A DNA stretch of 64,000 bases, taken from assembly GCF_004768785.1 (NCBI RefSeq), contig NZ_SRMQ01000001.1, positions 248,001 to 312,000 on the forward strand. The letters run 5' to 3'. The notes beneath the pieces are model-generated. The model saw only the letters and a list, made by a program, of their open reading frames with translations, was not told where the DNA came from and did no database searches. Every line of letters starts with the position of its first letter. Positions within the stretch are counted from its first letter, which is position 1. The translations under genes were made by a program, and so were the position numbers. Origin of the DNA: Caproiciproducens galactitolivorans (lineage in GTDB: Bacteria; Bacillota; Clostridia; Oscillospirales; Acutalibacteraceae). Below are positions 5,289-52,865 of this stretch, one piece after another.

Positions 5289-6494
5289 ATGAACTACAAT
5301 ACGATTCCGGAAGCGCTGGATGCTTTGCGCGCAGGAAAAATTATTCTTGTCGCGGACGACAAAAACCGGGAGAACGAAGGCGACCTGATTTGTGCGGCGC
5401 AATATGCAACCTGTGAAAACGTGAATTTTATGGCAACATATGCAAAAGGGCTGATTTGCATGCCAATGGATAGTAAGTTGGGCCATAAATTGGGGCTTGC
5501 GCAGATGGTTGCGGAAAATACAGACAATCATACCACCGCCTTTACGGTTTCCATTGACCATGTGGATACTACAACCGGCATTTCCGCCGCGGAACGGTCG
5601 CTGACGGCGCTGAAATGTGTCGAGCTTGGCGCCAAACCCGAGGATTTCCGCCGGCCGGGGCATATGTTTCCGCTTGTTGCTAGGCGGGGCGGCGTTCTGG
5701 TGCGCGGCGGCCATACGGAAGCGACCGTTGACCTTATGCGGCTGGCGGGGCTGAGGGAATGCGGGCTCTGCTGTGAAGTAATGGCGGAGGACGGGCATAT
5801 GATGCGTACGCTCCAGCTTTGGGAATTTGCGCGACAGCATGGGCTCGTTTTCATCACTATTCATGATCTGCAAGATTATTGCAGGCGCCATGACAAGCAT
5901 GTTGTCCATATGGCCAGCGCCAAATTGCCCACCGCTTATGGCGACTTTCAGATTCATGGTTATGTCAATGACTTAACCGGAGAGCATCATGTTGCCCTGG
6001 TAAAGGGGGATATCGGCGACGGCGAGAATCTTTTGTGCAGGGTGCATTCGGAATGCCTGACAGGGGATGTGTTCGGTTCCCTGCGCTGTGACTGCGGGCA
6101 GCAGCTTGCGGCGGCGATGCGCCAAATTGAAAAAGAAGGGCGCGGGATTCTTCTTTACATGAGCCAGGAGGGGCGCGGAATCGGGCTTATCAATAAACTG
6201 AAGGCATACGAATTGCAGGAAAAAGGCCGCGATACCGTAGAAGCTAATCTGGAATTGGGTTTTGCGCCCGATTTGCGGGAATACTGGATCGGCGCCCAGA
6301 TCCTGCAGGACTTAGGCGCTCGAAAAATTCGCCTGTTGACGAATAACCCAAGCAAGATTTACGGGCTGGACGGATTTGGAGTGGAAATTATTGAAAGAGT
6401 TCCGATCGAGATTGCTCCCTGTAAAGAAGATGCCTTCTACCTGAAAACAAAAGAGGAAAAAATGGGGCATTTGTTTTCCCATATCCCATCTTAA
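5289..6494 (+). CDS. ribBA: Bifunctional 3,4-dihydroxy-2-butanone-4-phosphate synthase/GTP cyclohydrolase II
   Basis: Supplies both precursors of riboflavin: the four-carbon unit from ribulose 5-phosphate (RibB, about 1-200) and the pyrimidine from GTP (RibA, about 205-401). The RibB half has [11 protein letters not shown] and RRPGHMFPL. The RibA half has [18 protein letters not shown] with the zinc cysteines and [10 protein letters not shown] with the catalytic Arg. The start at 5289 follows AAGGAGG at 5274-5280, which overlaps the ribE stop. A longer frame beginning at 5265 is less likely. Third gene of the operon, 401 aa, normal fused length. Confidence 0.97.
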
Positions 6495-6516
6495 GCATGA
6501 AAAGGAGCGAGTTCAC

Positions 6517-6984
6517 ATGAGAGTAATGGAAGGACAACTGGTTGCGGAAAAACTGAAATTCGGGATCGTCGTTTCCCGGTTTAATGAGTTTATTTCAAGC
6601 CGCCTTTTGAGCGGCGCGCTGGACACTTTGAAACGCCACGGCGCGAAGGAAGAAGAAATCGAAGTCGCCTGGGTTCCGGGCGCATTTGAAATCCCGCTTG
6701 CCGCAAAGAAAATGGCAAAATCCGGGAAATATGACGCGGTTATCTGCCTTGGCGCGGTTATCCGCGGTTCAACGCCGCATTTTGATTATGTAAGCAATGA
6801 GGTTTCCAAAGGAATCGCCAGCGTTTCGCTGGAAACGGAAACGCCGGTCGCTTTCGGCGTTTTAACGACGGATAACATTGAACAGGCCATTGAACGCGCC
6901 GGTACAAAGTCCGGAAATAAGGGCAGCGACGCGGCGCTTACCACCATTGAAATGGCAAATCTGCTCAGGAAACTTTCAAATTAG
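6517..6984 (+). CDS. ribH: 6,7-dimethyl-8-ribityllumazine synthase
   Basis: Condenses the RibD product with dihydroxybutanone phosphate to give the lumazine substrate of riboflavin synthase; members form 60-subunit capsids in many bacteria. 155 aa, normal length. Motifs are [29 protein letters not shown] with the active-site His, and [17 protein letters not shown]. An AAAGGAG site lies 11 bases upstream, and only 22 bases separate it from ribBA. Last gene of the rib operon. No clear terminator directly follows. Confidence 0.97.
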
Positions 6985-7084
6985 GAAATATATAAAATAT
7001 AACAGTATAAAGCCTTTTTCTAAGCACAGCATCCGCTAATTCCACATAAAATGGGATACGAAAGCAACAGAAAAAGGTGACATT

Positions 7085-7666
7085 ATGCTCAATTCTGCGG
7101 GGCCGAACATCATTCGGTATAGTTATGATCAAAGCGTAAACATTCCGATCGAATTGTACGAATCCTTGAACGGCAATTATTTTATGGGTTATGGGGATAA
7201 TTTAAGCCTTGGAAATGGAACCAGCGCCTGGGCCCGGCTATACAATCCGCCGAATTCCGGCGTCAATTTATATGTGAATGTTTGGACGGTAACCGATATA
7301 TCGGATTCGCCCTTCCGCGCCCAATTCTGGTTTAACGCAACCCCGCCCAAGGGCTCGTTCGAATCCGTTCCGGTAACCCCGTCCAATACAGCGATTCGCC
7401 CCGTTCCGCATCCTCGTGTTCAATTGCAGGTAGCATCGAATGTATCCGGCGAACCGACCGGCGGGGTTAAAGCGTTTGTGCGCAGGGGAGAATCGGGAAC
7501 AACTGTGGTGGATACCGAAAACGGGAAATTGATTTTTCCGCCCGGGGGTTCATTCCTTGTTTTCTTGTCGGTGACGGAGGATGTTTCAGCTGCGGCGGGG
7601 AGAATTGCCTTCGGTTGGTGGGAAGAAAAAATATCCTGTTTTGCATTTTATACGCAAAAGAACTGA
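7085..7666 (+). CDS. Hypothetical protein, possibly DUF6143-like
   Basis: 193 residues with an AAAAAGGTGA ribosome site just before the ATG. The central block ARLYNPPNSGVNLYVNVWTV, with many aromatic and beta-branched residues, suggests an all-beta fold. It resembles what I remember of the clostridial family DUF6143, but I cannot confirm this. There is no signal peptide or membrane segment. A run of prolines around 107-120 (SVPVTPSNTAIRPVPHPRV) may link two halves. It stands alone after the rib operon with about 100 bases of AT-rich leader. Function unknown. Confidence 0.7.
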   Translation: MLNSAGPNIIRYSYDQSVNIPIELYESLNGNYFMGYGDNLSLGNGTSAWARLYNPPNSGVNLYVNVWTVTDISDSPFRAQFWFNATPPKGSFESVPVTPSNTAIRPVPHPRVQLQVASNVSGEPTGGVKAFVRRGESGTTVVDTENGKLIFPPGGSFLVFLSVTEDVSAAAGRIAFGWWEEKISCFAFYTQKN

Positions 7667-49197: not shown

Positions 49198-49352
49198 CAG
49201 GCTTCGAATCTTAGTGGAAAATGTTAACAAATGGCATTTGCGCTTGCTTCTTACTACATTTTGGTTTATAATCGAACCAGAATTTTGTATTGTTTATAGA
49301 AAGAAAACGGAATCAAATATACAATTTTTATTAATAAATTGGAGTGGTAGGA

Positions 49353-52076
49353 TTGAAGCACAAAACAAAGCGCATTGTTGCGGCAGCGATTTCCTTTGCA
49401 TGCACCGCCGCGGTTACGGTGAGCCTTGTGCCCACGATTGCGGTTACGGCTGCTGTCACGGCTAAAACAACGGATTATTTAAATCTTCGCGAAGGCGCGG
49501 GTATAGATAAAAAAGTGATTTTAACCCTCAGCAAGGGGGTTGCGGTCACAATCCTTGATAATTCCAATGCAACATGGGCGAAGGTACAAACCGCAAGCGG
49601 AAAACAAGGGTATTGCAGCAAGCAATATCTGAGTATCCCCGGTTCCGGGGCTACGAATTCCCCTTCTGTTTCGGGAACGGCTTCCACAGCGGTCACGACA
49701 GATCGTGTAAATCTTCGGGCGGGAGCGGGAACCTCGACAAAAATCATGGCAACGCTCCCAATTGGTACAAGCTTAAAAGTAATGGACGCTTCCAATCCTG
49801 CATGGGTTAAAGTCCAGACTTCCGATGGAAGGCAGGGTTATTGCAGCACACAATACATACGCATATTGGCTGCTTCTTCCGGCGGGGTCGCCTCTGGGAA
49901 TACTTCCTCAGGGAGTTCTTCCTCCGCTTCTATAACGGCGGTTACGACGGACTATCTGAATCTGCGTCAGGGTGCCGGTACGAATTTTAAGGTGCTGGTT
50001 ACAATCAGCAAAGGAACGGCGCTTACGGTTTTGGATAATTCCAATCCATCTTGGGCCAAGGTACAGACTCCGGATGGAAAACAGGGATATTGCAGCAAGC
50101 AATATTTAACATTTAAAAATAACAGTTCATCCGGAAGTTCATCCGGAACGCCGTCCAATTCCGGCTCTTCCTCAAATTCAAGCACATCCGGTTCGGTTAC
50201 GGCGAAAACAACTTCAAATCTAAATGTAAGAAGCGGCGCGGGAACGAGTTTCGGGATTGTTATGACGCTGCTCAACGGCACGTCTGTTACCGTTCTGGAT
50301 AATTCGAATGCGCAGTGGGTCAAAATTAAAACCAGCGATGGAAAAACAGGATATTGCAGTAAGGAATTTCTGCAGATAACAGATACTGGCTCCAATACAA
50401 ATCCAAATCCGGATCCGGGTACAGGTACGGGTGCGGATACTGGTACTGATACGCCCCCGGACGTTGATACCGGCTCAGACAACGGTTCGGATTCCCATAC
50501 CATCACGGGTGCCAGCGTTACTGCGGACATGCTCCGCTTGCGCCAGGATCCGAGTACGAGCGCAAAGATCCTTGCCAACCTACCGCGTGGAACTAGCTTG
50601 AAGGTTCTCGATACTTCGAATTCTTCCTGGACCAAGGTACAGACTTCCAGCGGGTTGACCGGTTACGTCAGCTCGGAATATATTCAGATTCATTATTCGG
50701 ATGATCCCTCCAATGCCTCATCGCTTTCCCTGTCAACTACTTCCTCAAAAATTCCGGCGGGAAAGACACTGTACATAAAAGCCAATGTTTCACCAAGTGG
50801 AACCTATATTAACTGGACAAGCAGCAATAATAATGTGGCGACCGTTTCAAACGGGTACGTATCTGCCGTTTCCACCGGGACAGCCGTTATTACGGCGAGT
50901 TCGGGCTCTTACAAAGCAACCTGCAATATTACCGTTACAAGTGCGGAGCCGGTGAGAACCGCCTTTGCTTCGCCGAATATTGCCAGCACAGGGGCGGCGG
51001 TTACGCTGACTGCTGTTACCGATACCAGCCGGGATGCGGTTCAGTTTGTCATCCAGAGTCCGGATGGAACAAAGCAAACCGTCAATGCGGATTCCTGTAC
51101 GAATGAATCCTGCCAGAATGTAACGACAAAAAAGTGGACCGCTACGACGACTTTCTATTCGCCGGGAACCTATACATTCACCGCGTACTCCTCCCAGAAT
51201 GGGAATATGAGTACAACCGGTTTTACGTCGAACGCATATGTATCCTCTCAGCAGGATTTTTCGACTACCACGAGCGAAGAGCGCCGCGTCAGCGACCAGA
51301 TGATCGCCCTGATTGCCAAATGGGAGGGCTACAGCCCCACCGTTTACGCCGATCAGCTTACCGCCAATCAGGTGCCAACCATTGGCTACGGCTGTACCTT
51401 CGGAGCGAACGCAGTCTTTTACAACAATTTGACCGAAACGGAAGCCTGGTCGCTCCTAGTCAATAAAATCAATAATTCCTCATATACTACGGAACTAAAT
51501 AAAATGATTAAGAACAACCATTTTCTGATGAATCAGAATCAGGCCGACTGTCTGATCAGCTTTGCCTATAATGTAGGCGCGGGCTATTTCAACACCAGTT
51601 CTCAGGTCGATTTCCGGACGATTATGAGGAATGCGGTCGTACCGCCGACGATTTCCGGCTCTTTGGCGGCAACTGTGACAAAAGATACGGTCGTTCGCAG
51701 CGAACCAAGCATTAACGGTTCCGAGGTTTGCAGTATATCCAACGGAGCCTCGATAGATGTTACCGATACCAACTTTTCGAATCCGAAAGACGGCTGGTAC
51801 AAAGTACGGGCTTCCAACGGCAGCGAAGGCTGGGTAAACTCAGGCTATGTGTGCCTTTCGAATGCCGATTCCCTTACGCATGACCTGAACTATACCAACG
51901 CCTACGCTATGGGAACGGAAATGCTCCGCTGGAGTCAGGCGGGCGGCAAATTCTATACCGGCCTTTTCTACCGGAGGCTTGGGGAAGTTAATGTCTACAA
52001 TTACGGCGATTATGACGCCGTACGGTATAACAAATACAGCTACACCTATCCCAGCGGTGCGGCCGGTTTAAGTTAA
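49353..52076 (+). CDS. Secreted multi-SH3b GH24 lysozyme with an SH3 domain nested in the catalytic fold
   Basis: 907 aa. Signal peptide 1-35 (KRIVAAAISFACTAAVTVSL). Five bacterial SH3 domains start near 36, 113, 195, 283 and 389, each opening like TAKTTDYLNLREGAG, joined by Ser/Thr/Gly/Pro linkers. A Big_2-like domain (about 456-527) and a second beta domain (530-625) follow. The GH24 phage-type lysozyme starts near 640: Glu658, Asp667 and Thr676 match the T4-lysozyme triad. After FAYNVGAGYF the fold is interrupted by a sixth SH3b (about 767-836) and resumes at RWSQAGGKFYTGLFYRR. Probably a cell-wall hydrolase. The TTG start has GGAG eight bases upstream. Confidence 0.88.
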   Translation: MKHKTKRIVAAAISFACTAAVTVSLVPTIAVTAAVTAKTTDYLNLREGAGIDKKVILTLSKGVAVTILDNSNATWAKVQTASGKQGYCSKQYLSIPGSGATNSPSVSGTASTAVTTDRVNLRAGAGTSTKIMATLPIGTSLKVMDASNPAWVKVQTSDGRQGYCSTQYIRILAASSGGVASGNTSSGSSSSASITAVTTDYLNLRQGAGTNFKVLVTISKGTALTVLDNSNPSWAKVQTPDGKQGYCSKQYLTFKNNSSSGSSSGTPSNSGSSSNSSTSGSVTAKTTSNLNVRSGAGTSFGIVMTLLNGTSVTVLDNSNAQWVKIKTSDGKTGYCSKEFLQITDTGSNTNPNPDPGTGTGADTGTDTPPDVDTGSDNGSDSHTITGASVTADMLRLRQDPSTSAKILANLPRGTSLKVLDTSNSSWTKVQTSSGLTGYVSSEYIQIHYSDDPSNASSLSLSTTSSKIPAGKTLYIKANVSPSGTYINWTSSNNNVATVSNGYVSAVSTGTAVITASSGSYKATCNITVTSAEPVRTAFASPNIASTGAAVTLTAVTDTSRDAVQFVIQSPDGTKQTVNADSCTNESCQNVTTKKWTATTTFYSPGTYTFTAYSSQNGNMSTTGFTSNAYVSSQQDFSTTTSEERRVSDQMIALIAKWEGYSPTVYADQLTANQVPTIGYGCTFGANAVFYNNLTETEAWSLLVNKINNSSYTTELNKMIKNNHFLMNQNQADCLISFAYNVGAGYFNTSSQVDFRTIMRNAVVPPTISGSLAATVTKDTVVRSEPSINGSEVCSISNGASIDVTDTNFSNPKDGWYKVRASNGSEGWVNSGYVCLSNADSLTHDLNYTNAYAMGTEMLRWSQAGGKFYTGLFYRRLGEVNVYNYGDYDAVRYNKYSYTYPSGAAGLS

Positions 52077-52533: not shown

Positions 52534-52765
52534 TCAGGTTTCACGGAGACTTCGCCCGGCTAGTGCGAGAGCATACAGATTGGCGCAGGCAAACATGGCA
52601 TACAGCCGGTTTTTATTCTTTTTCAATCCGCGGTACCGGGTCTTTTGATACCCAAACTGACATTTGATAATGCGGAAAGCATGTTCCACTTTGCAACGTA
52701 CAGAAGATTTGCGATGTTCGATCATACGCTCCCAGTCCAGAAAAGGCTCGCGATCCGGAGATGTA
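52534..52765 (-). pseudogene. IS5-family transposase, C-terminal fragment
   Basis: On the minus strand about 70 residues match the end of an IS5-group DDE transposase. The signature Arg-(3)-Glu-(6)-Lys is intact in RCKVEHAFRIIK, where Glu is the last catalytic acid. RYRGLKKNKNRLYAMFACAN follows. The N-terminal two thirds, with both catalytic Asp, are gone. The open frame upstream reads into the palindromic repeat at 52778-52804, so the 5' break coincides with that repeat. Not functional. Confidence 0.85.
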
Positions 52766-52777
52766 CTAAACGAAGAA

Positions 52778-52804
52778 AGGATGGGTTCTTCGACAGTCTG
52801 AGAG
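52778..52804 (+). repeat. Half copy of the palindromic repeat
   Basis: 27 bases identical to 7761-7787, the right arm of the 24-bp palindrome and two flanking bases. The left arm is absent. It abuts the truncated transposase. Confidence 0.85.
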
Positions 52805-52865
52805 CCCAACAGGTACCGCCTGTGGGACTCTTTTTATAATGGGACAAAAAATTCTTTAAATTTTC

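Follow-up and report, generated by a model that had tools for sequence, protein, structure and literature searches.

A GH24 muramidase of Caproiciproducens galactitolivorans with an SH3b domain predicted to be nested in its lysozyme fold

GH24 lysozymes are best known from phages. In the phage-type GH24 enzymes measured in this work the catalytic domain carries no insert. The endolysin of the Clostridium perfringens phage phiSM101 (4krt) has an SH3 domain that shares its family, SH3_3, and its fold with the domain that is the subject of this work; in the phiSM101 endolysin it reportedly stands apart from the catalytic domain. Among solved structures, the best sequence match to the protein described here is the GH24 muramidase of Trichophaea saccata (8b2s), which likewise combines GH24 with an SH3-like wall-binding domain; this domain is N-terminal and attached by a flexible linker (G73-SSSGGG-S80), and its authors hypothesize a part for it in steering peptidoglycan into the active site (PMC10394673). 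Here, we analyze a 64,000-nucleotide stretch of the genome of C. galactitolivorans (contig NZ_SRMQ01000001.1, positions 248,001 to 312,000; the window), in which a muramidase gene at 49353..52076 on the forward strand, read from a TTG start to a stop codon that ends at 52076, encodes a long, probably secreted cellular protein. In this protein, an SH3b domain is not joined to GH24 by a single linker but is nested within it and held by two tethers.

A true domain insertion is supported by one predicted fold, by homologues with the same nested layout and by relatives from the same family that have no insert. With the TTG codon at 49353 counted as residue 1, the Glu/Asp/Thr triad, the role of which is known from T4 lysozyme, was assigned from sequence conservation to E658 (51324), D667 (51351) and T676 (51378; together 51324..51380), and the FAYNVGAGYF motif starts at residue 737; these are the residues that an earlier note on this DNA had claimed to be in place. 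A Pfam scan of the protein matched PF00959 (Phage_lysozyme) in two stretches. The best of them, at residues 656-751, extends over positions 2-88 of the 125 in the profile, and the protein belongs to this family with a score of 71.7 bits, well above the curated 22.3. SH3_3 was matched in six stretches, in agreement with an SH3b profile and with the claim of five SH3b domains ahead of GH24 and one inside it. The first GH24 piece spans aa 645-759 (51285..51629; model helices H117-127 to H222-228). It is followed by tether 1 (aa 760-770, 51630..51662), the nested SH3b (aa 771-835, 51663..51857; model strands E240 to E304), tether 2 (aa 836-849, 51858..51899) and the closing GH24 piece (aa 850-885, 51900..52007; model helices H319-330 and H338-353), which has the pattern RW..AGG....GL..RR..E with RWSQAGG at residue 859 and GLFYRR at residue 870. 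The nested SH3b passes SH3_3 (PF08239) with an E-value of 2.1e-10 and 41 bits against a curated threshold of 27 in the 376-residue C-terminal part, where it is the sole SH3b. In the window protein, 127 residues separate YNxG from GLxxRRxxE, versus 32-42 in 106 viral GH24 proteins and, therefore, the insertion is more than chance.

To predict the fold, aa 532-907 were modeled with AlphaFold2 from an alignment of the window protein and 52 relatives (model residue n corresponds to protein residue n+531). The model has a mean pLDDT of 94.6 and a pTM of 0.91, and orders the chain as GH24 helices (aa 648-759), SH3b strands (771-835) and closing helices (850-861 and 869-884), so that the predicted GH24 domain is a complete lysozyme fold, closing helices included. 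VIA-align superimposed model residues 107..358 on the phage endolysin 7m5i_A, a continuous lysozyme, over 154 of 160 residues (2.3 Å, Z 13.1); the model also aligned to P22 lysozyme (2anv; 143/146 residues, 2.9 Å) and to the muramidase domain of SpmX (6h9d; 143/147 residues, 2.4 Å). In a Foldseek search against the PDB, the endolysin 8hp8 came first and Ig-like proteins came next. A second model, of a Ruminococcus bromii protein (L063) with about 35% identity, gave a pLDDT of 90.6 and a pTM of 0.81, and aligned to 7m5i over 154 of 160 residues (2.5 Å, Z 15.1). Across the two models, 143-157 residues aligned to the phage-type endolysins (7m5i, 8hp8, 2anv) and SpmX, which share this fold. For the window model, no SH3 chain was among the matches listed by VIA-align; the SH3b fold of the nested domain is seen in the strands of that model and in the R. 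bromii copy, which matched the SH3 domain of phiSM101 (4krt_B) with Z 10.4 at 2.1 Å. The earlier note had proposed that the two GH24 pieces pack as one lysozyme with the SH3b as an excursion, and had named structure prediction as the check; both models bear this out. By prediction, then, the catalytic domain would keep a single lysozyme fold with a binding module lodged within it. The note was less exact on the point of insertion. It had the SH3b follow FAYNVGAGYF in place of the usual helix; the insert is real, but the short helix of aa 753-759 still comes first, and the insert occupies the loop that leads from this helix to the final pair of GH24 helices.

The note also held that the RWSQAGGKF...GLFYRR block closes GH24. 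Apart from the models, this is supported by the relative G034, which has no insert and whose end matches the block at 44% identity (E 1.9e-8). On its own, the block matched solved GH24 structures weakly (6.8-8.6 bits). A sample of 200 genomes from the window's family showed how the slot varies. At 1e-20, 57 genomes matched, 50 of them (own genome included) as one full-length piece; the seven partial matches comprise five uninserted proteins (L150-L154) and two with a double SH3b (L148 and L149). L150-L154 resemble the window protein in their Ig-like domain and GH24, and have no SH3b in the slot; the more distant GH24 protein L017 likewise has none. The slot measures 3-10 residues in the uninserted relatives (n=5), 77-92 with a single insert, and 146 and 159 with a double insert; the count used for the uninserted proteins makes the inserted slots one residue longer. 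L148 (325-2721, genome G786) and L149 (978-2582, genome G797) carry a tandem pair of SH3b domains inside GH24, and N-terminal SH3b domains were not found in them. The slot tree has no root, and long branches mark the rows that bear on whether the insert was gained once and later lost or the uninserted forms are ancestral.

The nested layout, which the note had suggested looking for in other clostridial proteins, occurs in R. bromii and in members of the window's family. Among 60 relatives compared, the full module was present in nine of ten congeners and in one other family member (L013). The idea of an assembly artifact or single-genome oddity was dropped given these nine congeners. In a sample of 295 genomes from the order, full-length matches were found in 16 among the matches listed (own genome included), all in the window's family, which contributed at least 26 of the genomes listed. 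In a sample of 398 genomes from the phylum, searched at 1e-15, two matched, the own genome and another from the family, and no full-length match outside the family was among the matches listed. From the genome contigs, the best 80 of 342 relatives were taken by their similarity to a nested query, a choice that says nothing about frequency; named carriers among these 80 include Caproiciproducens, Caproicibacter, Neglectibacter, Anaeromassilibacillus, Acutalibacter and R. bromii. NCBI labels C. galactitolivorans as Acutalibacteraceae and some carriers as Oscillospiraceae; we take R. bromii to be in the same family as the window in GTDB. The own genome has one copy of the module; its other match, L002, reads as a flagellar rod protein and was taken as spurious.

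To examine conservation, we considered 84 nested proteins, i.e., the window protein, the 80 genome-contig loci just described, L013, L148 and L149. They were picked largely with one-insert queries, and counts among them are not frequencies; the family sample (50 of 200 with a single full-length match, plus two doubles) gives a better frequency estimate than 84/84. E658 and D667 are kept in all 84 proteins and T676 in 82, and R874, R875 and E878 of the closing piece are kept in all 84. One protein, L101, missed the closing-motif pattern, which 80 of 81 matched, and L098 was left out of the slot tree and the identity figures. At an E-value of 0.01, PF00959 matched 53 of 53 aligned relatives. The nested SH3b was detected in 84/84 proteins with a profile refined on the same proteins, and in 70/81 with a profile built from the five tandem SH3b domains of the window protein alone.

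Altogether, we consider it reasonably likely that the protein is a secreted, wall-anchored GH24 muramidase in which the SH3b is nested for positioning. It is probably a cellular autolysin that acts in wall turnover or cell separation. We suggest that the enzyme would be exported and that its tandem N-terminal SH3b domains would hold it to the wall. The nested SH3b on its two short tethers would bind peptidoglycan at a defined site next to the catalytic domain, because two short tethers replace one flexible linker, and the bound strand would be presented or oriented toward the cleft for cleavage. The gene, its domain order, the unbroken GH24 fold with the SH3b as an excursion, the conservation and the range of zero to two inserts in relatives come from sequence or prediction; export, attachment to the wall, catalytic activity, a role as autolysin and positioning are what we infer. 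Positioning would fit the tethers and the confident window model. In L013, L072, L148 and L149, which have intact 5' ends, tandem SH3b domains were not found and, therefore, the nested SH3b domains are the only candidate SH3-type wall binders in these proteins.

Several observations weigh against this reading. First, confidence is lower at the tethers of the R. bromii model, with pLDDT blocks of 76 and 79 before the SH3b and 78 after it. Because AlphaFold2 tends to give well-packed multidomain models, as stated for the related SH3-muramidase (PMC10394673), the placement of the SH3b in our model may be over-confident. Second, over all 80 single-insert relatives, mean identity is 48% and 45% for the GH24 pieces, 34% and 44% for the tethers and 31% for the SH3b; tether 1 is thus hardly better conserved than the SH3b. 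Third, the two proteins without T676 are the double-insert proteins L148 and L149, in which Thr is replaced by Asn and Asp, respectively, and on reading the sequence the uninserted relative L151 likewise has no catalytic Thr. Fourth, SH3_3 was matched in 52 of 53 aligned relatives and not in the remaining one. Fifth, the insert is dispensable for the GH24 fold, as five relatives keep GH24 without an SH3b.

The main and serious rival, which we regard as possible but on the whole unlikely, is that the nested SH3b is a passive extra repeat that landed in a permissive loop and adds avidity without any special geometry. The occurrence of none, one or two SH3b domains in the slot of relatives agrees with this idea, and so does a GH10 xylanase family in which a similarly permissive loop holds one to three carbohydrate-binding modules (CBMs); for nested CBMs in this xylanase and in the amylase SusG, the discussion leans to substrate binding and relatively independent function (PMC7848910). 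Identities among 15 near loci cut both ways. The nested SH3b (52%) is less conserved than both GH24 pieces (76%), as a passive repeat would be; the tethers, however, are better conserved than the SH3b (66% for tether 1 and 72% for tether 2), an advantage that tether 1 loses over the 80 relatives. Also against a passive repeat, 82 of 84 proteins carry exactly one nested SH3b, against anything from 0 to 9 in tandem, with the qualification that 81 of the 84 are the window protein and loci picked with one-insert queries, that the doubles were chosen as doubles, and that tandem counts are lower bounds in the 10 of 80 loci cut at the 5' end. Lastly, in a tree of SH3b domains (194 rows after near-copies were dropped, 56 columns, many forks poorly resolved), nested copies cluster together, with 8 label changes where shuffling gave a mean of 48. 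On this grouping we also rejected the idea that a tandem SH3b was recently copied into the slot.

Two further ideas give the nested SH3b a regulatory part. One, which we regard as doubtful, is that it is an allosteric sensor: a wall ligand on the SH3b would open or order the cleft, so that cutting occurs only at that wall feature. If this is true, the enzyme would represent a family-specific lysozyme design, and the slot with none, one or two SH3b domains would be a natural tuning series. The other, gating, in which the SH3b covers or closes the cleft until a wall ligand is met, seems to us improbable. In T4 lysozyme, the region corresponding to the insert loop lies near the cleft mouth. Gating would draw on the position of the insert, in the loop that precedes the final pair of GH24 helices, and on the confidence of the window model around it; against it, we found no sign of two states, and the tethers of the R. 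bromii model are the less certain part. We would prefer positioning over gating.

That the gene is a phage endolysin or a prophage remnant is very improbable, although GH24 is associated with phages and a DDE transposase remnant lies just downstream, at 52534-52809 on the reverse strand between the muramidase gene and a flagellin gene. The protein has a signal-peptide-like start, and nine of ten congeners carry the gene. We surveyed viral GH24 proteins with fixed motifs: among 116 loci, 112 had an open reading frame (ORF) with YNxG, 109 of these also E..D..T, and 106 also the closing motif. None of these 106 measurable proteins has an insert, and there was no SH3 match in the scanned ORFs of the viral loci. 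Likewise, no phage or plasmid record spanned 80% of the module, and a library of viral structures yielded many plain lysozymes, with a poorly aligned top match (A0A8S5NUM4, 237 aa, rmsd 11.9). A phage or prophage lysis cassette also does not fit the neighbors, i.e., an MFS transporter gene upstream and the transposase remnant and then flagellin downstream. Further downstream are genes that we read as presumably encoding FliW, FlgL and FlgK. Of the 80 loci compared, four from congeners (L032-L035) retain these flagellar genes downstream; in L033-L035 the flagellin gene lies on the opposite strand. Loci of the Ruminococcus type have a DUF5685-type gene (37/80) and a J-domain-like gene (31/80) upstream, and a proC-type gene (37/80) and a SpoIIM-family gene (19/80) downstream; these families were checked on L058 only (PF01944 for SpoIIM), and the J-domain was called by eye. 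In L058 the nested muramidase lies at 5657-7197, and L148, by eye, too has a proC-like gene next to it. Because neighbors differ between branches, no single pathway is implied; a link to sporulation wall remodeling is conceivable. Overall, the gene seems to be chromosomal and passed down within the family, and not of phage origin.

The least credible alternative, that GH24 is truncated or dead and RWSQAGGKF...GLFYRR is an unrelated C-terminal domain, could appeal to the best Pfam stretch ending at profile position 88 and to the weak matches of the block alone, and is set aside since both pieces align to one lysozyme, a family relative with no insert ends in sequence that matches the block, five relatives with slots of 3-10 residues carry the block without an SH3b, and the triad is conserved.

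The part of the protein ahead of GH24 starts with a signal-peptide-like N-terminus, identified by eye (about aa 1-34, 49353..49454); a crude signal pattern (Lys/Arg plus a hydrophobic stretch in the first 90 aa) was present in 68 of the 70 homologous ORFs with an intact 5' end. The five tandem SH3b domains, found with Pfam SH3_3 and the SH3b profile, follow at 49452..49637, 49686..49871, 49935..50120, 50196..50381 and 50511..50696, all on the forward strand, as are all features of the gene given here. Two Ig-like domains had been proposed between them and GH24. The second (aa 532-640, 50946..51272), directly before GH24, is upheld by the model, residues 1-102 of which match Ig folds with a best Z of 11.4. 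It has no Pfam match, yet is kept before GH24 in the aligned homologues, with insert or without, and perhaps represents an unnamed domain family. The first (aa 489-529, 50817..50939) is a weak Big-like match below threshold (PF22359, E 1.2e-4, 22.7 bits against a curated 27).

The likely Shine-Dalgarno sequence, GGAG at 49341-49344, suits the TTG at 49353; since a GTG in the same frame, at 49344, would overlap that sequence, TTG is the better start. Upstream, a likely sigma-70-type promoter, TTGCTT-17-TATAAT, lies at 49244..49272 on the forward strand, a role suggested by its sequence; the congener loci L032-L035 have TTGCTT or TTGATA, 17 bases and TATAAT. Just 5' of this site, the palindrome TGTTAACA (49222-49229, within 49219..49235 on the forward strand) is present upstream in L032-L035 too, and could possibly be a regulator site. 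With up to 1 mismatch allowed, the extended motif AAATGTTAACAWWTGGC has a single match in the own genome. A sigma-28 promoter was also considered: none lies just upstream of the muramidase gene, and the pattern matched 17 times in the window versus 10.4 expected.

How does this muramidase compare with other enzymes that have an internal binding module? In the GH10 xylanase Pm25 (CBM4s) and the GH13 amylase SusG (CBM58), a binding module likewise sits in a loop of the catalytic domain; these enzymes have other catalytic folds, other substrates and non-SH3 modules, and Pm25 homologues hold one to three CBMs where the GH24 proteins hold none to two SH3b domains (PMC7848910 for the xylanase and the amylase). 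Nested binding modules are, thus, already known in other glycoside hydrolases, and an SH3b in GH24 would be a new variant; we found no report of one in open-licence PMC full text, which is a weak negative. In the usual picture of a wall-lytic enzyme, flexible linkers keep catalytic and binding modules apart; in this one, the putative binder is built into the fold. The slot marks a GH24 loop that tolerates whole domains, and the natural series of none, one and two SH3b domains makes the effect of a rigid internal binder on lysozyme cutting directly testable.

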